From an uncultured Pseudomonadota bacterium (GTDB lineage: Bacteria > Myxococcota_A > Bradymonadia > Bradymonadales > Bradymonadaceae): a DNA stretch of 32,336 nt. The stretch is taken from NCBI GenBank assembly GCA_950059285.1, contig CATLTV010000042.1, positions 1 to 32,336 on the forward strand, given 5' to 3'. This document shows, one piece after another, positions 2,684-31,390 of this stretch (position 1 is its first letter; every line of letters starts with the position of its first letter). The notes under the pieces are model-generated. The model did no database searches. It was given only the letters and a program-made list of their open reading frames with translations, and had not been told where the DNA came from. Position numbers and translations under genes: made by a program.

Positions 2684-4092
2684 GGGTTTTGTGCGTCGTA
2701 ACGTGCCTGTAGAGTCTTCACCAGAGCATGTGCACCAAGCTCCTTGTAACATTGAATGAGCCACTTGAGCCCCTGAGTATGATGAGGATCAAGAGCTACC
2801 AACTCGGTCACAAGAGGCATACACGACGAGCGCAAACAGGATTGATCCTCCTTGAGCTTTGCAGAAATCAGCGCCCTTAACTGAGCAACTCTTGGCCCAA
2901 CCTGTTGGCCAGGGGAGGGCGTATCCGTCGACCGCACATCGTCATGGCTATCGCTTTTATCCAGAGCAACCTCGTGTTGAGGTTGCTCTCTTTTTTTTGG
3001 TTCGGCACGCACAACAGGCTGCTGTGGTTGCTCCTCATTTGATTTTGACTTCAGCTTGTAGGACCTCGCCAATTTACGCTGAAGAGGACTCATCGCCTCC
3101 GCCTGACTTGGTGGGCGATAGGGTTGAGGAGGAGGGGGCGCAACCTTTTTCTTCCGCGCAGGCTTTGACTGGGCAAGCGGAAGGGTCTGCTGTGGTTCAT
3201 CAGACACAAGACCTGCCGAGAATCCAGGACCACCCTGAGCAAAGATTTCAATCAACGCCGCGAGGGAAACCACATCCAACAGGTTGTGGTCACGAATCTC
3301 ATCAAGCATCGTAAGATCTTGCTTCATCAAAAAGTGTTGCCAACGCCGTGGGACTTCGCTCCCTGGCAAATCATGCTCACGTGTAAAGCCGAGCAAGGTC
3401 TGCTCCATCGTGGCGAGGTTCAATTTATGGTTCTGTTTGGGCAACATACGTCGCGATGTATGCACAAGGTCTGCATGCTTCTGGCGTGTAATACCTACAG
3501 GGTCCAGACCAAATTGAGTACACCTGCTCTTCACCCTTGGGACATCAAAGCTCTTTCCATTGTACGTACACAGCACCTCAAACGCACATAAATCAGCAAG
3601 CATGGCCCGAAGCATGTTCGCTTCAGCACGCGGATGAAAGATGAAGTAATGTTTCACGTGAAACATATCGGCAGGATGATGATCCAACCAGTACCCGAGT
3701 GCCGCACAGATAATAGGATCTGTATTGCGTAGACCTGATGTCTCAATATCAAAGAACGCAATCTTGTGACGCTCAACTTGACGGTCAAGCCCCACAATAC
3801 GCTCGGGCGTCTTCCATGGAAGCGCCGAATCAAAAGGAGCAAGCCCATGAATGGAATGATCGGTGGATGGCACAAAAGGGTGCGTCGTGATGATGAAATC
3901 ATCCTCGGGATTTTCAGCTCGTGTAAACGCATTTGGCTGCTGTGGTGGGGCAGGGCGCTCCACGGAAGAATCCGTAAACACGCGGCTCTCATCACTCTCG
4001 TGTGAGGTGTCCTGCCTTGTACGGTGCAGACGCTTGAGCTTACTCTTTATCTTTGATGCCTGATGCCGCTTGCCAGAACCTTCCTCGCTCAT
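2674..4092 (-). CDS. YprB-like DEDDh 3'-5' exonuclease domain protein
   Basis: The 472-residue protein has a disordered basic N-terminus (1-100), then a ribonuclease-H-like exonuclease domain (about 108-285), then a Pro/Lys/Gln-rich linker and a helical tail that looks TPR-like (about 400-465). The four catalytic acids are visible: Asp115 and Glu117 in FFDIETSG, Asp183 in the TYNGKSFD motif, and His269/Asp273 in DHNLLD. This is the arrangement of the YprB ribonuclease-H-like family, predicted to trim RNA or DNA ends. A perfect parS site lies inside the domain and encodes MFHVKH (residues 143-148). The start codon overlaps the stop of the upstream LuxE-like gene by four bases (ATGA), so the two are translationally coupled. 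Confidence 0.8.
   Translation of the reverse strand: MSEEGSGKRHQASKIKSKLKRLHRTRQDTSHESDESRVFTDSSVERPAPPQQPNAFTRAENPEDDFIITTHPFVPSTDHSIHGLAPFDSALPWKTPERIVGLDRQVERHKIAFFDIETSGLRNTDPIICAALGYWLDHHPADMFHVKHYFIFHPRAEANMLRAMLADLCAFEVLCTYNGKSFDVPRVKSRCTQFGLDPVGITRQKHADLVHTSRRMLPKQNHKLNLATMEQTLLGFTREHDLPGSEVPRRWQHFLMKQDLTMLDEIRDHNLLDVVSLAALIEIFAQGGPGFSAGLVSDEPQQTLPLAQSKPARKKKVAPPPPQPYRPPSQAEAMSPLQRKLARSYKLKSKSNEEQPQQPVVRAEPKKREQPQHEVALDKSDSHDDVRSTDTPSPGQQVGPRVAQLRALISAKLKEDQSCLRSSCMPLVTELVALDPHHTQGLKWLIQCYKELGAHALVKTLQARYDAQNPYG
2963..2998 (+). terminator. Intrinsic terminator on the plus strand, inside the opposite-strand gene
   Basis: AGAGCAACCTC and GAGGTTGCTCT form an 11-bp perfect stem with a GTGTT loop, followed at once by C and eight Ts. 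The T-tract is only on the plus strand, so it would stop transcripts coming rightward from the hypothetical gene at 2267-2683, which would otherwise run antisense into the exonuclease gene. Confidence 0.75.
3650..3665. promoter_or_regulatory. parS site 1 (inside exonuclease CDS)
   Basis: TGTTTCACGTGAAACA is an exact match to the widely conserved bacterial parS palindrome bound by ParB (Spo0J). It lies in the coding sequence of the YprB-like gene and is read there as part of Met-Phe-His-Val-Lys-His. It is about 12 kb from the proposed origin. Confidence 0.9.
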
Positions 4093-7170: not shown

Positions 7171-7585
7171 GGTATATCCTTTTTTGAGACTTAACATGGG
7201 TTAAGATACGAAAATCTAGAGTTCAGTAAGTGTTTCACGTGAAACACTTACTTTCTCTTACAATATTTAAAAACACATCAAAAGTATCAATCAAGAGAAA
7301 GCTCACCAAAACAAAAAACAACAGGCATCAAAAAAGCGACATTTTTACCACAAAAAAACTAGACGTATCAATGCATTGAACAAGATAGTATAGTGCGACA
7401 GGACATACCCCAATGCCTTCCTGCTTGAGAAAGTGTACAATAGCAGGTATTGCGATCTTGAGAGACCTGTCTCTGCCCTATGAATAAGCAATACAAGACC
7501 CTCACTAGCAGCGCATGGACGCGCTCATCTTGTATGGCAAACCTGGTAGGATTGGACTGCATCCTTCACAACAGAGAGTAGACCC
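7171..7585. other. Intergenic region between divergent genes, with parS
   Basis: About 415 bases separate the lipoprotein and GAF/HEAT genes. The left part holds parS 2 at 7231-7246. The middle (7260-7370) is A/T-rich. The right part includes possible promoter elements such as TTGAGA, 17 bases before TGAATA, at about 7457-7485. I find no convincing gene here. Confidence 0.5.
7231..7246. promoter_or_regulatory. parS site 2 (intergenic)
   Basis: Perfect TGTTTCACGTGAAACA. The symmetry extends outward for six further bases on each side (AGTAAG / CTTACT), giving a 28-bp perfect palindrome at 7225-7252. It sits in the divergent intergenic region upstream of the lipoprotein gene, so ParB spreading from it could affect both neighbours. 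Confidence 0.92.
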
Positions 7586-10000
7586 TTGCTTGATTATGGT
7601 CACAACTGGACACAAGATGAAACCCTTCACTTTGTCGAACACTGTTACGATCGTGACACGCTCCTCATCACACTCTTGAACTATGCAGAAGCATGGCTCG
7701 CTGGCCGCATGATTTGTGTGGTCGCACATGAACACTTGCAGCCGTTTAAAACACAAGGCTGGTCAGGGTGGGGGACCGATGAAGAAATCTCTGCATCAAT
7801 GGTCAAGCAACGTGTCACCCTTGATGATAGCCCCCTCCTTGAAGCCATTATCGAGCAGGGGAGCTACACTGTCAGCTCAACCTCCGAGCTGGGCTTTGAC
7901 ACCATCTTCTCTGCAGCGAGTGTGCTCCCTCCTGATGATCTTATTATCGTTCCCTTGCAGCTTGCGCGCCGCACCAAGATGCTCCTCATCGGTGAATCCA
8001 AACAGGCCACGCTCGACTTGATGGAGTTCTCCAAGAACCTCCGTCCTCTGGTGGATGTCTCGGATGCTGTCGCAGTTCAACTTGAACGTATCATCAAACT
8101 CTCCAAGACCAAGCAACTCCCACCTGTCGAGGAGAGAATTCCCGACCTCCCCGAACGTATCAGCACTGCATTCTCAACCCCCTCCGCAGCAAGCATCGTC
8201 GAAGAGGAGGCCACACCTCCACAACTTCAAGTGTCCACCACACAACAAAACATGGGCATTGAGGTTCCTCGAAAGACACAACCTATTCGTATCCAACAAC
8301 ACACCTCCGAGCTGAGCGCGCTCTTTGATAACAGCCTCAACGCTGGCAGGGAACATATCGAGGAGCACTCGAAAGAAAGTTCCACACATATGGGAACACC
8401 TCTGCAAATGATCAAGGAAGGGATGAGCATCGACATCATGGGGATTAACACTCCTCCAGTGCTCGACAAGAGCACTCTCGAAAAGCTCCCCGACTCTCCT
8501 TATGAAGAGGCACGCGAAGACATCGCAGTCGCCACACCTCAACTTGAAAAGCGACACACCGAAACCAAGGAACTTGAAGGCGTCTCGATTATCGAGCCCA
8601 TTGGGCTCCATGATCAACGCCGCGCGAAACGCACTCTGATGGGTGGATTCTCCATTGAGGACATCAAACGCGCCCAGGCTCGTTTTGAAGAGGAAGAATC
8701 TCAACCAATTATCAATCGCAACAAGAAGGCATCCAAAACCATCCCAGGTATCTCCATCCCCAAAGCGCAGGTCCTTAAAAGGCGTAAACGCTCCGATGAC
8801 ATGGAGCCCGAAGATGAGACAACCTCAACACATGTCGCCAATGAGAGCGATGATTACTCCAATAACCCCACGCTCAAAGTACAGGCAGTCTCAGCACAAC
8901 AAGCTGCCCAGGACAGGTTTACACGTGATCAACAACGCACCACAGTAAAGAGGCGTGCCCAGAATGAAGTGATCATCACTCCCGTGGTAGAACCACTGCA
9001 AAGCGTGGACCCTGAACAATTGAGCTCCTCGCACAGCACCAAGAAGATGCAAGCTGTGATTCCTCCGCCCATTCCAGGCTCTCAATCACAGGCCGACGAT
9101 ACACGCGAAATGCAGCGTGCTGATTTCCCCATGGAAGTCAGCCAATCTAGCAAAAACTGGGCAATCCTCTTCACCAAGCTCGAAAGCAAAGACAAACAAA
9201 TCGCCTACAGTGTGGTCAAGGAGTTTGAACCTGACCCCATCGTCCTGATTCGTCTTGAAGAGATCTTTCCGGGGCGCCTTTATGTGGACCGTTATCAATG
9301 GACTGTGGATACACTCCCTCCCATTGATAAACATGGTCCTGTCCTCGCTGCGCTCAATCATCTTGGCGAACAAGCATCTCCTGTGCTCGTCGAAATGATG
9401 CGCGCTGAGAGCATTGAGCTTCGCTTCTATGCGACATACATCCTCTCACTTCACCCCGTCTATGAAGCGCGCGACGCGTTCCTTGAGCGCATCTTTGACC
9501 GCGATCTTCAAACACGACAACTGGCAGGGCAGGGGCTCGTCAAGCTTTCACAAATGCACGCCAAGCTCGCCCCTGAACTTGTACCTTACCTCGCCAAGGT
9601 CGTCGCAGAGCACAACGACGACTTCCAGGTTGAAATTGCCGCCCATATCCTCGGCGAGCTGCGCTCACCACTGGCGCTTACACCCTTGATGAATGTCCTT
9701 GATTTGAATAAGGGCCGCGTCAAACAAACGATTCATACTGCGCTCACCAAAATTGCTCTTCAACCTCTCCCTGCGGCGACTGTAGCGTGGCGCACCTGGT
9801 ATCAAAACTCTCACAAGGAAGAACGCAGACAGTGGATTCTCAACGCCATGGTCAGCAACTCGGAACTTGTCCGTAAGACCGTCGCCCATGAACTCTCCTT
9901 GCTCCCAAATCTCTCCACCAGCTACTCACCCAACGCACCCATGCACGTGCGTTCACGAGCACAACAAGAGGTCGATCACTGGTTCCAACACCGCACGTGA
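7586..10000 (+). CDS. GAF-like domain plus HEAT-repeat protein
   Basis: The 804-residue protein is in three parts. Residues 1-185 form an alpha/beta domain (LDDSPLLEAIIEQGSYTV, DLIIVPLQLARRTKMLLIG) with the pattern of GAF-like sensor domains seen in myxobacterial signalling proteins. Residues 190-515 are polar, rich in Ser, Gln, Glu and Lys, and probably disordered. Residues 520-800 form an alpha-helical array of HEAT-type repeats (ALNHLGEQASPVLVEMM; HILGELRSPLALTPLMNVL), likely a protein-binding scaffold. No membrane segments or enzyme motifs are seen. TTG at 7586 is the first possible start after the in-frame TAG at 7547 and has a GAGAG upstream; the start is therefore tentative. The gene ends 8 bases before the parS-centred palindrome. 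Confidence 0.65.
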   Translation: MLDYGHNWTQDETLHFVEHCYDRDTLLITLLNYAEAWLAGRMICVVAHEHLQPFKTQGWSGWGTDEEISASMVKQRVTLDDSPLLEAIIEQGSYTVSSTSELGFDTIFSAASVLPPDDLIIVPLQLARRTKMLLIGESKQATLDLMEFSKNLRPLVDVSDAVAVQLERIIKLSKTKQLPPVEERIPDLPERISTAFSTPSAASIVEEEATPPQLQVSTTQQNMGIEVPRKTQPIRIQQHTSELSALFDNSLNAGREHIEEHSKESSTHMGTPLQMIKEGMSIDIMGINTPPVLDKSTLEKLPDSPYEEAREDIAVATPQLEKRHTETKELEGVSIIEPIGLHDQRRAKRTLMGGFSIEDIKRAQARFEEEESQPIINRNKKASKTIPGISIPKAQVLKRRKRSDDMEPEDETTSTHVANESDDYSNNPTLKVQAVSAQQAAQDRFTRDQQRTTVKRRAQNEVIITPVVEPLQSVDPEQLSSSHSTKKMQAVIPPPIPGSQSQADDTREMQRADFPMEVSQSSKNWAILFTKLESKDKQIAYSVVKEFEPDPIVLIRLEEIFPGRLYVDRYQWTVDTLPPIDKHGPVLAALNHLGEQASPVLVEMMRAESIELRFYATYILSLHPVYEARDAFLERIFDRDLQTRQLAGQGLVKLSQMHAKLAPELVPYLAKVVAEHNDDFQVEIAAHILGELRSPLALTPLMNVLDLNKGRVKQTIHTALTKIALQPLPAATVAWRTWYQNSHKEERRQWILNAMVSNSELVRKTVAHELSLLPNLSTSYSPNAPMHVRSRAQQEVDHWFQHRT

Positions 10001-10007
10001 AACACCA

Positions 10008-10079
10008 TCATGAAACACAAAAAGAAGAGGGCCAATGTTTCACGTGAAACATTGGCCCTCTTCTTTTTGTGTTTCATGA
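10008..10079. terminator. 72-bp perfect palindrome: bidirectional terminator centred on parS
   Basis: The 36 bases at 10008-10043 are the exact reverse complement of 10044-10079, with no spacer. The outer arms carry AAAAAGAAGAGGGCC and GGCCCTCTTCTTTTT, which act as a GC-rich stem with U-tract on either strand, between two convergent genes. The innermost 16 bp are parS 3. Confidence 0.85.
10036..10051. promoter_or_regulatory. parS site 3 (centre of terminator palindrome)
   Basis: Perfect TGTTTCACGTGAAACA located at the dyad of the 72-bp palindrome. In duplex DNA it is a ParB site; in RNA or extruded DNA it would be the tip of the hairpin. Confidence 0.92.
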
Positions 10080-10091
10080 CATAACAAAAAC

Positions 10092-12713
10092 CTACACTGT
10101 CATGCGCTCCACAGTGATAATTCCTGTCTCTCCATCGACCGTTAACCAGTCACCATCCTCAATCACATCCAACGCCTGAGAGACATTGGCGACCACAGGA
10201 ATGCCATACTCACGTGCAACCACACAGGCATGACTTAATGGCCCTCCAAGGCTCATTACGACACCTCCAGCAGACAAAAACAGAGGAGTCCAGCCCACAT
10301 CCGCATAAGGCACCACCAGAATATCACCATGACCCAGCTTTGCGCGCTGTGATGGATCAGTCAAAAGACGCGCCACTCCAGAGACGTGGCCCTTGCTCCC
10401 CGCAAGTCCATACAATGTCCAGCGCTTGAGCTCTGATGATGCTGAACGCTCAACATCCTGCTCAGGAACCCTGTCCAGGGCAATAATCCTCCCATTCTGG
10501 CTTAAAAACGATCCTGGAGGGTCAGGAAGATCACGCTGATGCTCGTAAATTACCTTCCTCACCAGCGTGAGCATGCGAAAACGCTCCGCAAATGAGGCGT
10601 CATCTGGCTTCTCTAACCACTCCCATAGCTCCTCCATCTGCAAGAAAAAGACGTCCTCCTTGCTCGCCAGAGCCCCCTGACGCACCAACCGCGCACCACA
10701 CTCCAACACCAACACACGGTACATATCAAGCGCATCCACCACCAGTGCCCTCAGAGACTCTCGACGTTGTGCGCTCCTCCTTACAAGCGTGAGAAACTTC
10801 CTGAATACAGGCCTCATCGCCCCCGAAAACATCCCGCGAATCACGGCATCTTTCTCGTCTCGACGCGCCTGTTTCTCACGCTCAAGCTCTCGTTGTGTCA
10901 CCAAAGAAGGGGCGTTCACAAAGCTCTTGAGCACATCAAAGATAAATGTGGTGTCCTCTCTCCATCGAGGTGTTGAAAGCTCCGCCTCACGTGGTGCTCG
11001 ATGCCCGTACAACGCACGAAACTTCTCAAGCTCAACCATAAACTGCGCCACATCTGCACGATCACGCTCGTGTTTCAGGTGCTCATACAACGCGCCAGAA
11101 GCATGCTCTGCAATCGTCTCACGTAAGTACAGGGAACGCCTCACCAGACGGCCCAATCTCAAAAGCTCCAACCCAGGCTCGGCGCTCTTGACCTCCAACC
11201 CTCCCATTAAATTCTGCTCGAGACTGGTCAGCTCATCATCCCCACTCCAGAAACGTATCACCTCCCTCATCACAATATAGAGAAGCAAGAAGTTACTACT
11301 CGCAGAGAGCATCACCAAACCATTACGATCAAAGAGTTGCTCTGTCTTTTGAAAGGTTGCCTTTAACTCTCTTGCGCTCAAACGGCTGTAATCATTTAGA
11401 AAAAAGTCATCTCTTTGACGGGCAAAATAACGCTCCCACAACATCGACAGGGCAGGGCTACCCAGCTGAGAAGACGCTATCTTGAGCGCAGTCCAGGGAA
11501 GCTTGACCATAAACTTCACCCTGCTTCCACCTCCCTGATTCGTCCCCTTGACCTCGTCTACACCGCCTCCTCCTGCAAGCTCGAACAGGACTTCGGGACG
11601 CAGCAAGGGCACCGCGCTGGCAATCTCCATGAATTGCGTCAGGTTCAGATAAACCCTCCCATGAAAACCTCGTACAAGCTCCACATCCTCGGGAACAACA
11701 AGCCCAAGGCTCTTGAATGCTTGCTCAAATCCCTTCTTGCTGAAACGGTGAATCACACTCCAGGTCAAGGGCGTCCCCACACCTGGTAGAGCCTCTCCTA
11801 CATTGGCGTTGGTATACACCTCTGCGCGACCCTCAACCGCTTCAATTCCCTCATGGACAAGCTTCAGTGGGCGCAACTGCAACACATAAAGCGTTCCCTC
11901 CACGGCATTGACTCCTCCCTGCACAAATGCCCACTCAATATCGTGCCCCCAACCCTCAAGAGAAGGGGAGTTGGCCTCAACGTGGTCCGCAAGATCAAGC
12001 AATTGCGTCAGCCAATGCTCCTGAAGCTCACCATCTTCCCCTCCTTTTTTACTGCGTGTGTAACGCGACTTCGCCTCAATAAAGTATGTCGTCGCATCCT
12101 GAGAACCATCCACCACAGCGGTGCCAAGGCCCTCAGCGCTACTAATCACCCTGATTTTATCGTGGGAAAGTTGCTCTGGATCACGTGAAAACATCACGCC
12201 TGCTCTGCTTGGCGTGAGCATCGGTTGAATCACAACTCCCATCCCGGAAGGAACCAACGATGCCCCGGATTTGTCGCGGTAAAGCAACACATGGTCCTCA
12301 AAAGCACTGACCCAGACGTCTCGAATCGCCTGACAGAGCCCCTCCAGGCCTGTGATTTGGTGCAGACTTAAATGCTGACCAGCAAAGCTGAAGTCATGCC
12401 CATCCTCATCCTTGCCCGAACTACGCACGCACCAGAACACATTGTCATGGCGCTGCAACCACTCGGAGAGCTCCTGAACCAGAGGCTCTGCTAACTTTGC
12501 CTTGTGAATGCAATCCCTTAATACATTGATATTGCTTGATTTTCCAAGCGCATCACGAACCACATCCTCAAAGCATGATATCTTCACACACAGGGTAGGG
12601 GGGATGTTTACGCCCATGTGCTGTAATGCATATAACCCTCTGGCCTTCCCCCCTAACTGAGCCACATCCGATTCAGGGAGCCTTCCTGTAAGCTCCACAG
12701 TCCACACGCCCAT
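10092..12713 (-). CDS. PEP-synthase / rifampin-phosphotransferase-like enzyme
   Basis: The 873-residue protein has an N-terminal ATP-grasp domain of the PPDK/PEP-synthase type (about 1-300; GGKARGLYAL, CVRSSGKDEDG, VMFSRDPE, SSAEGLGTAVVDG), a long divergent helical middle (about 310-760), and a C-terminal swivelling phosphohistidine domain. In the last domain GGPLSHACVVAREYGIP carries the catalytic His at about residue 828. It lacks the TIM-barrel PEP/pyruvate domain of true PpsA. Order and length match rifampin phosphotransferases (about 865 residues, His near 825), which move a phosphate from ATP to a small molecule. The substrate here cannot be told from the sequence. The ATG at 12713 has AGGAGG seven bases upstream and shares one base with the cutA stop (TGATG), so it is coupled to cutA and the upstream tetR. 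Confidence 0.75.
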   Translation of the reverse strand: MGVWTVELTGRLPESDVAQLGGKARGLYALQHMGVNIPPTLCVKISCFEDVVRDALGKSSNINVLRDCIHKAKLAEPLVQELSEWLQRHDNVFWCVRSSGKDEDGHDFSFAGQHLSLHQITGLEGLCQAIRDVWVSAFEDHVLLYRDKSGASLVPSGMGVVIQPMLTPSRAGVMFSRDPEQLSHDKIRVISSAEGLGTAVVDGSQDATTYFIEAKSRYTRSKKGGEDGELQEHWLTQLLDLADHVEANSPSLEGWGHDIEWAFVQGGVNAVEGTLYVLQLRPLKLVHEGIEAVEGRAEVYTNANVGEALPGVGTPLTWSVIHRFSKKGFEQAFKSLGLVVPEDVELVRGFHGRVYLNLTQFMEIASAVPLLRPEVLFELAGGGGVDEVKGTNQGGGSRVKFMVKLPWTALKIASSQLGSPALSMLWERYFARQRDDFFLNDYSRLSARELKATFQKTEQLFDRNGLVMLSASSNFLLLYIVMREVIRFWSGDDELTSLEQNLMGGLEVKSAEPGLELLRLGRLVRRSLYLRETIAEHASGALYEHLKHERDRADVAQFMVELEKFRALYGHRAPREAELSTPRWREDTTFIFDVLKSFVNAPSLVTQRELEREKQARRDEKDAVIRGMFSGAMRPVFRKFLTLVRRSAQRRESLRALVVDALDMYRVLVLECGARLVRQGALASKEDVFFLQMEELWEWLEKPDDASFAERFRMLTLVRKVIYEHQRDLPDPPGSFLSQNGRIIALDRVPEQDVERSASSELKRWTLYGLAGSKGHVSGVARLLTDPSQRAKLGHGDILVVPYADVGWTPLFLSAGGVVMSLGGPLSHACVVAREYGIPVVANVSQALDVIEDGDWLTVDGETGIITVERMTV

Positions 12714-13087
12714 CAGGTCTCCTCCTGCTGTGTCACATCGTGTACCCAGGAGACATAACTGCTGGAAGCAATATCAGGGCGAAACACAAGGATTTCAGGC
12801 ACATCATAAGGATGTAGCTCATGAAGTCTGTCCAGACACCTGGAGAGAGAAGACGAAGAGGTCTTGATGTACATCAAGACCTCTTCGTCTTTTACGACCT
12901 TGCCCTCCCAGTAATAAATGCTCTGTACCTTGGGTAATTTACTCACACAGGCCGCCAACTTTTCAGCAATCAGGCGGTGTGCAAGTGACGTCGAGGCGGT
13001 CTCTGGAGCGCTGGTCAAAATAAGAAAGAGACCTGCATCTGGAGAGTCGGACTGCTGTTCAAAAAGAGATGAGAAGAGGGGGTTCAT
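12713..13087 (-). CDS. cutA: CutA1 divalent-ion tolerance protein
   Basis: CutA1 proteins are small ferredoxin-like trimers linked to copper and other divalent-ion tolerance. The 124-residue product contains the family hallmarks in order: LAHRLIAEKLAACVSKLP, SIYYWEGKV, DEEVLMYIKT, and LHPYDVPEILVF. The length is typical. The ATG at 13087 has AGGA eight bases upstream and is preferred over the TTG at 13090. It lies between a tetR gene and the phosphotransferase-like gene on the same strand. An oddity: a 42-bp perfect palindrome (12850-12891) is embedded in the coding sequence at the EEVLMYIKT segment; that protein segment aligns to CutA without a gap, so it does not look like an insertion. Confidence 0.9.
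   Translation of the reverse strand: MNPLFSSLFEQQSDSPDAGLFLILTSAPETASTSLAHRLIAEKLAACVSKLPKVQSIYYWEGKVVKDEEVLMYIKTSSSSLSRCLDRLHELHPYDVPEILVFRPDIASSSYVSWVHDVTQQEET
12850..12891. repeat. 42-bp perfect palindrome inside cutA
   Basis: The 21 bases at 12850-12870 are the exact reverse complement of 12871-12891 with no spacer (dyad at TGT|ACA). It is followed by TTTTA on the plus strand and by a pyrimidine-rich TCTTCTCTCTCC run on the minus (coding) strand, so it could act as a pause or attenuator inside the operon. Confidence 0.85.
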
Positions 13088-14732: not shown

Positions 14733-14770
14733 AAAAGAGCCCCCATATCGTACGATATGGGGGCTCTTTT
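14733..14770. terminator. 38-bp perfect palindromic terminator, no loop
   Basis: AAAAGAGCCCCCATATCGT (14733-14751) is the exact reverse complement of 14752-14770; the arms end in A-tract and T-tract. Strong bidirectional terminator marking the left border of the gene-free origin region. Confidence 0.88.
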
Positions 14771-16302: not shown

Positions 16303-17424
16303 ATGAAGATTCGCATTTCCCGTCAGTCCCTCACAGATGAGCTGTTTAAGCTCCAAGGGGTCGTGAGTCAGCGTAGCACGCTCGCTATCCTTTCTAACGC
16401 ACTCCTGGAAGCTCAGGATGGTAAACTGACCCTCCATGCCACTGACCTCGATACAAGCGTCTCCACCTCCTGTGAGTGTGAAATCCTTGAAGAGGGTCGT
16501 GTGACACTCCAGGCAAAGAGCTTCTACGATATCGTGAAGAACTTGCAAGAGGATGAGCTGGAGCTCGAGACCGAGGAAAATCACTGGGCCAAACTTACCG
16601 CAGGTGATGTCACCTGTCGTATCGTTGGAACACACCCTGAAGACTTCCCTCAAATCCTGGACACCAAGGATGCCAAGCTTTACCCCATCGGTACACCTCA
16701 GCTCCTCTCCATGATTGAGAAGACCCTGTTCAGTGTCTCTACCGATGACATGCGAGCAAACCTTACAGGTGCCTACTTCCGTATCACCGATGAGAACACC
16801 TTCTTGATGGTCTCCACCGATGGTCACAGGCTCTCCAAGATTGAAGTCACCCCCGAAGAGTTCGAGGCTGACAACATTCCTCAGGCGCTCTCCGATGGGA
16901 TTATCATCCCTCGTAAAGGGCTCGCCGAGATCAAACGTATTGTCGATGCCAAGTCCAAGGACCTCAGCTTCGGTCTCGTGGATAACTCCATCGTCTTCCA
17001 GTATGGTCCCATGAGCCTCTCTGTGCGATTGATCGAGGGAACCTTCCCTGACTTCACACAGGTCCTCCCCAAGGACAGCGACAAGCGTGCGGTGGTTCAT
17101 CGCGACACCCTTGTGCAGTCCCTCAAGTTTGTGAGCCTCTTTGCGAGCCCCAAGACACACAACGTACGCATCTCTCTGACTGAAGAAGGTCTTGAGCTGT
17201 ACGCTTCTGATCCTGACAAGGGCGAGGGCAAGAAACTTGTCCCCGCCGAGTATGGTGGTCCTGTGGTCAAAGCGGGTTACAACTACCGCTACATGTTGGA
17301 CGTGCTCAATGTCATCGATGGTGATGAAGTCTCTCTGGAAGTCATCGATACGCTCTCTCCCACACTCCTGCGCGACTCCAACCACGATGAAGCGCTCTTT
17401 GTGGTGATGCCCATGCGTCTCTAG
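16303..17424 (+). CDS. dnaN: DNA polymerase III beta subunit (sliding clamp)
   Basis: The clamp is a ring-shaped dimer that holds the replicative polymerase on DNA. The 373-residue product starts with MKIRISRQSLTDELFKLQGVV and contains the recognised segments ATDLDTSV, AKSFYDIVKNL, GAYFRI, STDGHRLS, GLAEIKRI and the C-terminal LRDSNHDEALFVVMPMRL. The last residues match the conserved end of the clamp that lines the client-binding pocket. Length is normal for three clamp domains. The ATG at 16303 is clear, though its GGAG is about 12 bases upstream. It follows the origin and is not preceded by dnaA. It ends before a structured RNA candidate and a terminator, so recF is not simply cotranscribed with it. 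Confidence 0.97.
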   Translation: MKIRISRQSLTDELFKLQGVVSQRSTLAILSNALLEAQDGKLTLHATDLDTSVSTSCECEILEEGRVTLQAKSFYDIVKNLQEDELELETEENHWAKLTAGDVTCRIVGTHPEDFPQILDTKDAKLYPIGTPQLLSMIEKTLFSVSTDDMRANLTGAYFRITDENTFLMVSTDGHRLSKIEVTPEEFEADNIPQALSDGIIIPRKGLAEIKRIVDAKSKDLSFGLVDNSIVFQYGPMSLSVRLIEGTFPDFTQVLPKDSDKRAVVHRDTLVQSLKFVSLFASPKTHNVRISLTEEGLELYASDPDKGEGKKLVPAEYGGPVVKAGYNYRYMLDVLNVIDGDEVSLEVIDTLSPTLLRDSNHDEALFVVMPMRL

Positions 17425-17671: not shown

Positions 17672-17703
17672 GTTATGTGTAACCTACTAAAGTGAGACCT
17701 GTT

Positions 17704-18921
17704 ATGCTCGTCAAAGCGCTGCGCTTGCGACATTTTCGTAACCTATCCAGCATAGATCTGAAACCTCACCCTCGCTTTAATATCTTCAGCGGGGCAAATG
17801 GCCAGGGGAAGACGAACCTTCTTGAGGCTCTGTACCTGTTGAGCGCTGTGAAGAGCTTTCGCCCTCAAACCAACGCCGAACTGATCGAGTTCGACCAGAG
17901 CCAGGCTAGCCTTGAAGCTCATGTCGAACGCGGTGGCCAGGAACGTATCGTCAAGATTGAAATCGGCGAGCGTGGCAAGAAGGTCTACCTTAACAATAAC
18001 AAGGTGAAGCAACTCTCGAGCTTCTTTGGTACGCTGAACGTGGTCATGTTCGGCCCCGAAGATATCTCCCTGATGAAGGGGTCGCCTTCCAATCGACGAC
18101 GCTTTATTGATCGTGCCATCTTTAACGCGCAACCTGCGTATGCCACCGAGTCGATGCACTATGATGAAGTCCTTAAACAACGCAACGCATTGCTCAAAGG
18201 ACCGCATAACTCCGACCGCAAACTGTTGGCTGTGTATGATGAACAACTAATCCAGTATGGCGCATCAATTGTTCAGCGTAGGTACAATTACTTGCAGGAA
18301 TTTAAACCAACGTTTGAGAAGACGTTCCAGGACATCTTTGATGCAAGCTTTGAAGCCGAGCTGACATATGAGCTTGGCTGGCATTCAGGACCACTCAATG
18401 ATCCTGACGCTGTCCTCTCTGACAGGATCAAGATCGAGCAACTTCTTGCCGATGCGCTTGAACGTACTTCAGGTGAGGAGCGTGATCGTGGTCACACACT
18501 GGTCGGACCACATCGTGACGATCTTGGTGCGACCCTCAACGGACGAGAGCTAAAAGCGTTCGCCAGTCAGGGACAACATCGCGCGTTTGTGCTCGCCATG
18601 AAAATTGCCGAGATCTCACACCTTGAAGAGCGCTACAACTTTGCGCCCATTTTGTTGCTTGATGATGTCTCCAGTGAACTTGACCGTGATAGAAACCGCT
18701 ACCTCTTTGACTTCCTCTGCGATCGTATGGAAGGGCAGGTCTTTATTACCACCACCCACCGAGATTATATCTTGCTGGATCATGACCTCGCTGTGTTTCA
18801 CGTGAAACATGGGGAAATTGAGGCTCAGGATCCCGAGACAGATGCGTTTGCTACACCACACTCTCCACAGACTTATTCACAACCTTTGGAAAACTCCTCA
18901 TCCGCCAAACAAGAAGAGTAA
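17704..18921 (+). CDS. recF: DNA replication and repair protein RecF
   Basis: RecF is an ABC/SMC-type ATPase that helps load RecA at gaps. The 405-residue product has VKALRLRHFRNLSS at the start, Walker A GANGQGKTN (about 30-38), the signature region FASQGQHRAFVLAMKIAEI, and Walker B ILLLDDVSSELD. The ATG at 17704 gives the usual RecF N-terminus; the GTG at 17692 would add four residues. A perfect parS lies near the 3' end and encodes VFHVKH, in the position of the common final RecF strand. About 35 residues of polar tail (QDPETDAFATPHSPQ) follow this point. The start lies just past a strong terminator, so recF needs readthrough or its own promoter. The next gene starts six bases after its stop. 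Confidence 0.95.
   Translation: MLVKALRLRHFRNLSSIDLKPHPRFNIFSGANGQGKTNLLEALYLLSAVKSFRPQTNAELIEFDQSQASLEAHVERGGQERIVKIEIGERGKKVYLNNNKVKQLSSFFGTLNVVMFGPEDISLMKGSPSNRRRFIDRAIFNAQPAYATESMHYDEVLKQRNALLKGPHNSDRKLLAVYDEQLIQYGASIVQRRYNYLQEFKPTFEKTFQDIFDASFEAELTYELGWHSGPLNDPDAVLSDRIKIEQLLADALERTSGEERDRGHTLVGPHRDDLGATLNGRELKAFASQGQHRAFVLAMKIAEISHLEERYNFAPILLLDDVSSELDRDRNRYLFDFLCDRMEGQVFITTTHRDYILLDHDLAVFHVKHGEIEAQDPETDAFATPHSPQTYSQPLENSSSAKQEE
18794..18809. promoter_or_regulatory. parS site 4 (inside recF)
   Basis: Perfect TGTTTCACGTGAAACA within the recF coding sequence, about 3.2 kb right of the origin core. With the three sites on the left it brackets the origin. Confidence 0.92.
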
Positions 18922-20551: not shown

Positions 20552-20622
20552 GCACAAAAAAGACCGCAATGGGGGCGAGTGTTATTTCATAACACTCGCC
20601 CCCATTGCGGTCTTTTTTGTGC
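20552..20622. terminator. Long bidirectional hairpin terminator
   Basis: 34-bp perfect arms (20552-20585 and 20589-20622) with a three-base loop TTC. Each arm includes an A6/T6 run inside GCACAAAAAAGACC, so it terminates both the methyltransferase transcript and the convergent TerB-like gene. Confidence 0.88.
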
Positions 20623-31320: not shown

Positions 31321-31390
31321 GCATACGATAAGAGTGAGGGGGCGGCCTGTTGCATTCGCAACAGGCCGCCCCCTCACTCTTATCGTATGC
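31321..31390. terminator. 33-bp hairpin between uppS and thiD
   Basis: The arms 31321-31353 and 31358-31390 pair perfectly with an ATTC loop. The right arm is followed by TCTTTATTT, a weak U-tract. The very stable, GC-rich stem should terminate uppS or stabilise its end. thiD's GGAG lies only ten bases past it. Confidence 0.7.

Follow-up and report, generated by a model that had tools for sequence, protein, structure and literature searches.

parS is usually regarded as an isolated ParB site. That a recognition motif can also lie inside a transcription signal is established for Neisseria, where DNA uptake sequences occur within terminators (PMC2397512), and this provides an established parallel to the locus presented here. 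No description of a terminator centred on parS was found among the titles and abstracts listed from the open-access literature, which is weak evidence of novelty. The window, i.e. the whole stretch of 32,336 nucleotides that was analysed, contains such an arrangement, a perfect palindrome with parS at its middle (Table 1). The original prediction of 36-bp arms with zero mismatches, zero spacer and a central parS was confirmed on the sequence, the two arms (10008-10043 and 10044-10079, 36 nt each) being 100% complementary with a spacer of 0 nt.

Table 1. Features of the palindrome, its flanking genes and the surrounding window
Feature	Position	Strand	Remarks
Perfect palindrome, 72 bp	10008-10079		bidirectional intrinsic terminator-like hairpin
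parS TGTTTCACGTGAAACA	10036-10051		16/16 consensus, 0 mismatches; in the very middle of the palindrome, where it forms the hairpin tip
Left inner stem GAAGAGGGCCAA	10024-10035		G+C-rich; pairs with 10052-10063
Right inner stem TTGGCCCTCTTC	10052-10063		12 bp, contains GGCCC
T-tract 3' of G+C stem	10064-10068	+	would serve + transcripts of the HEAT gene
T-tract (AAAAA on +)	10019-10023	-	would serve - transcripts of the PPDK_N gene
HEAT-repeat protein ORF, convergent gene 1	7586-10000	+	half-parS at its stop codon
PPDK_N / PEP-utilising enzyme ORF, convergent gene 2	10092-12713	-	stop 12 nt from the palindrome
Second exact parS	7231-7246		centre of 28-bp palindrome 7225-7252 (14-bp arms), divergent intergenic region
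Exact parS, armless	3650-3665		within RNase_H_2 gene
Exact parS, armless	18794-18809		within recF
dnaN	16303-17424	+	marker of origin-proximal region
recF-like ORF	17692-18921	+	RecF/RecN/SMC N-terminal domain
Terminator-like palindrome without parS, comparison	20552-20622		arms 34, loop 3
Terminator-like palindrome without parS, comparison	31321-31390		arms 33, loop 4

Moving out from the centre, one meets in the right arm half of parS, then the 12-bp stem, a T-tract of five bases and finally an outer GTGTTTCATGA; the left arm mirrors this order. The palindrome scored as terminator-like on both the + and - strands, and the predicted fold of each is a long unbroken hairpin (-58 and -59.6 kcal/mol, z -15 and -13). 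It starts 8 nt past the stop of the + gene and ends 12 nt short of the stop of the - gene; as both stops point at the palindrome, the flanking genes are convergent. A half-parS, GTGAAAC, at 9997-10003 overlaps the stop codon of the HEAT-repeat ORF. The presence of dnaN and recF at 16.3-18.9 kb together with a cluster of parS sites, four exact copies in the window where 0.26 would be expected with up to 3 mismatches allowed, identifies an origin-type (oriC-type) region, and a ParB gene is encoded in the genome on contig C420 (TIGR00180 match, 192.7 bits, above cut-off).

We consider it probable, on the sequence evidence, that the element is an origin-proximal parS which doubles as the tip of an ordinary bidirectional intrinsic terminator between convergent genes. 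The duplex DNA form of the site would load ParB, and the RNA form would fold into a hairpin which, with the U-tract past its G+C-rich stem, would end both transcripts. Being itself a palindrome, parS would suit a terminator tip at small cost. The arms would represent the very long perfect terminator stem usual in this genome, probably gained around a parS that already lay close to where the PPDK_N gene ends. This dual use has no need of a new coupling mechanism.

The length and perfection of the stem were assessed in a census of 720 kb of the same genome, taken as 20-kb stretches chosen regardless of parS. It yielded 98 perfect inverted repeats with arms of at least 20, among them 61 with arms of at least 30 and 27 with at least 35, and 35 of the 98 lack a spacer. 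The density is about 8.5 repeats with arms of at least 30 per 100 kb, and scaling to the genome of 6.65 Mb gives about 900 with arms of at least 20. Convergent gaps hold 35 of the sampled repeats, tandem gaps 45, divergent gaps 8 and coding sequence 5, although convergent gaps make up 3% of the sampled positions and coding sequence 83%; the 5' arm is predominantly purine in 94 of the 98. In a second-order Markov control of 420 kb, each run produced a single perfect inverted repeat with arms of at least 12 and none with at least 14, so that chance is no source of 36-nt arms. No repeats with arms of at least 20 were present in 80-205 kb samples of eight relatives (G003, G004, G005, G006, G007, G008, G012 and G021), and like samples of G010 and G013 contained two and three, respectively. 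With 0-3 per sample in the relatives, it is thus this genome that stands out for its long perfect terminator-like repeats.

The original prediction took selection to be implied by so long a perfect palindrome. That the palindrome is exceptional, or that it implies selection tied to parS, is not supported: with several hundred like repeats in the genome, the palindrome at 10008-10079 is not exceptional in length or perfection, and has the genome's standard terminator form. That it might be unique in the genome is ruled out by the same 98 repeats in 720 kb. Further long palindromic terminator-like repeats lie in the window at 12850-12891 and 14733-14770, and across the genome the palindrome stems have common motifs, e.g. 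GGGGCGGC, and tips such as GCTAGC. Loss of SbcCD was considered as a cause of the long palindromes and rejected, as sbcD and sbcC are present and adjacent with open reading frames. The genome-wide palindrome habit may outrank the parS case in interest. The abundance of these repeats also bears on the view that the element is an assembly or amplification artefact produced by fold-back joining. The assembly is fragmented (441 contigs) and the compared genomes are all from other genera, but hundreds of like repeats, the terminator composition, the location in intergenic gaps and the intact flanking genes make such an origin barely credible.

What is special here is the parS at the tip, rather than the length or perfection of the palindrome. 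None of the 98 sampled palindromes with arms of at least 20 (720 kb) has a parS-like tip, so tips in general are not parS. Arms of 33-36 bp flank three of the 12 parS-like sites (at most 1 mismatch) in the genome, and shorter arms are present at two others, C39:6251 and the site at 7231 in the window. The arms are perfect at C42:10036 (36 bp, the site in the window) and C5:67171 (33 bp), while at C5:48800, a CATG variant of parS, arms of 36 surround a two-base spacer. Independent placement predicts about 0.002 coincidences (12 x 900 / 6.65 million) against the three observed, and permutation of flanks between the sites of this genome gave no site with at least 6 extra pairs against four observed. 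On both the permutation and these three of 12 sites the motif occurs in terminator-like hairpins above chance, as dual use would have it. The parS hairpin at C39:6251, with imperfect arms, occupies the gap between two reading frames; the frames, read from the sequence, are presumably GAPDH-like before it and Pgk-like after it, and the hairpin is a possible intra-operon attenuator.

In G007, which belongs to another genus of the same family, the PPDK_N orthologue is conserved with its CutA and TetR neighbours, and an exact, armless parS lies inside the ORF, within tens of nt of the gene's 3' end. Since a different gene lies on the far side of this parS, its orthology is supported by position only. 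The original prediction had named, as evidence against itself, relatives that keep parS without the arms together with RNA ends mapping elsewhere; G007 supplies the first of the two. A parS within 3 mismatches at that place is absent from the other PPDK_N orthologues examined. Elsewhere in G007 parS sites carry arms of 18, 18, 13 and 12 bp, and there is no excess of arms at 38 parS of other family members. A search of named genomes with the neighbour proteins found no relatives. A class-level relative, G052, has 19 parS-like sites (e.g. L093, L094), several as closely spaced pairs. The simplest history suggested by these sequences is that parS came first and the arms afterwards, or that the arms were lost in G007.

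Comparable hairpins are found well beyond this lineage. A scan of bacterial genomes for parS flanked by A5 and T5 tracts returned at least 116 stretches. Among the matches listed, 40 of 109 distinct parS selected by their tracts have at least 6 extra contiguous pairs, against 0.43 expected by permutation. These stretches also contain 135 parS that were not selected by tracts, and 14 of them have such pairs, against 0.40 expected. The parS-centred hairpins, again among the matches listed, occur in Clostridia, Bacilli, Actinomycetota, Proteobacteria and Bacteroidota, with bearers that include Clostridia, Selenomonas, Paenibacillus, Rothia, Arthrobacter, Micavibrio, Larsenimonas and a Saprospiraceae genome. 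The predicted fusion of parS with a bidirectional terminator-like hairpin stands at the level of sequence, and recurs non-randomly both in the genome and in other phyla. Divergent gaps hold no gene ends. Hairpin-bearing parS are scarcer there among the matches listed (2/46 vs 28/109, p = 0.0015), in a comparison that uses a crude ORF caller and ignores kinship between genomes; within the unselected subset alone the depletion is not significant (1/12 vs 17/71, p = 0.45, matches listed). In the window itself, the palindrome at 7225-7252 with its central parS occupies a divergent gap, a place where a terminator is unexpected, and as no transcript of a flanking gene ends there, not all arms are terminators.

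Conservation of such an element as a unit is seen in Pelosinus, where five genomes (L189, L254, L260, L263 and L291) share an identical AAAAAGTGTCAAATTA-parS-TAATTTGACACTTTTT, invariant over about 48 bp, although the A5/T5 pattern match by which all five were found could have passed over Pelosinus genomes in which the element has changed. The neighbouring genes and flanks vary at many sites across the five genomes. In the family of the window the single comparable site has parS and no arms. The terminator-like Pelosinus element lies directly after parB, 24-39 nt past the aligned end of that gene, and from its sequence the likely terminator of parB itself holds parS. Among the matches listed, parS hairpins are likewise found after parB in Rothia, Arthrobacter, Hathewaya and others.

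These distributions weigh on an account without selection for termination, in which the palindrome grew by mutation, template switching at the 16-bp parS having copied one flank onto the other. Such growth agrees with the perfect symmetry and zero spacer, with arms that are labile between genera, with the 28-bp parS palindrome in the divergent gap at 7231 and with some parS hairpins elsewhere that have no obvious T-tract. We nonetheless regard it as unlikely, since the genome's long palindromes lie mainly in gaps with gene ends and have a nearly always purine-rich 5' arm, parS hairpins elsewhere avoid divergent gaps, and the Pelosinus element does not vary among the five genomes. Template switching could still provide the raw material.

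The position of hairpins right after parB in several genera agrees with a functional coupling, in which the terminator would shield the ParB loading site from RNA polymerase, or ParB at parS would alter termination. The geometry allows this, as RNA polymerase arriving from either side reaches the terminator at parS, and coupling is possible because ParB bound to an intergenic parS can repress its neighbours: at parS3 and parS4 of Pseudomonas aeruginosa it represses the adjacent genes (PMC5521831). Against it, the parS at 3650 and 18794 sit within genes of the same genome without such protection, and arms are absent from most parS sites, so that we find coupling improbable. That converging transcription affects ParB clamps loaded at the site is speculation. 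A broader proposal, that parS-tipped terminators form a widespread selected class in which the stop of transcription couples polymerase arrival, ParB loading and sometimes the end of the parB transcript, is put forward tentatively, as an idea that may well prove wrong.

Dual use of parS as site and terminator tip would have implications beyond this locus. If a sizeable share of parS double as terminator tips, parS placement would be set in part by transcription units. Mutations in parS may then carry termination side effects, and natural elements, of which the terminator-like one after parB in Pelosinus is the best, would allow a test of how ParB and RNA polymerase interfere with each other.

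Set against known systems, the element shares with chromosomal ParABS a parS of 16/16 consensus, several copies by dnaN/recF and a ParB gene in the genome, but whereas a typical parS stands alone, this site tips a 72-bp terminator-like palindrome. With bidirectional Rho-independent terminators it has in common the perfect stem, G+C-rich core, T-tracts on both strands and placement between convergent genes; it differs from them in that the tip is a predicted protein-binding site and the stem extends far beyond the length needed, yet is normal for the genome. The resemblance to the uptake-sequence terminators of Neisseria (PMC2397512) lies in the reuse of a functional DNA recognition motif in a terminator-like hairpin, which there is built from two inverted copies, while here one self-palindromic motif forms the tip.
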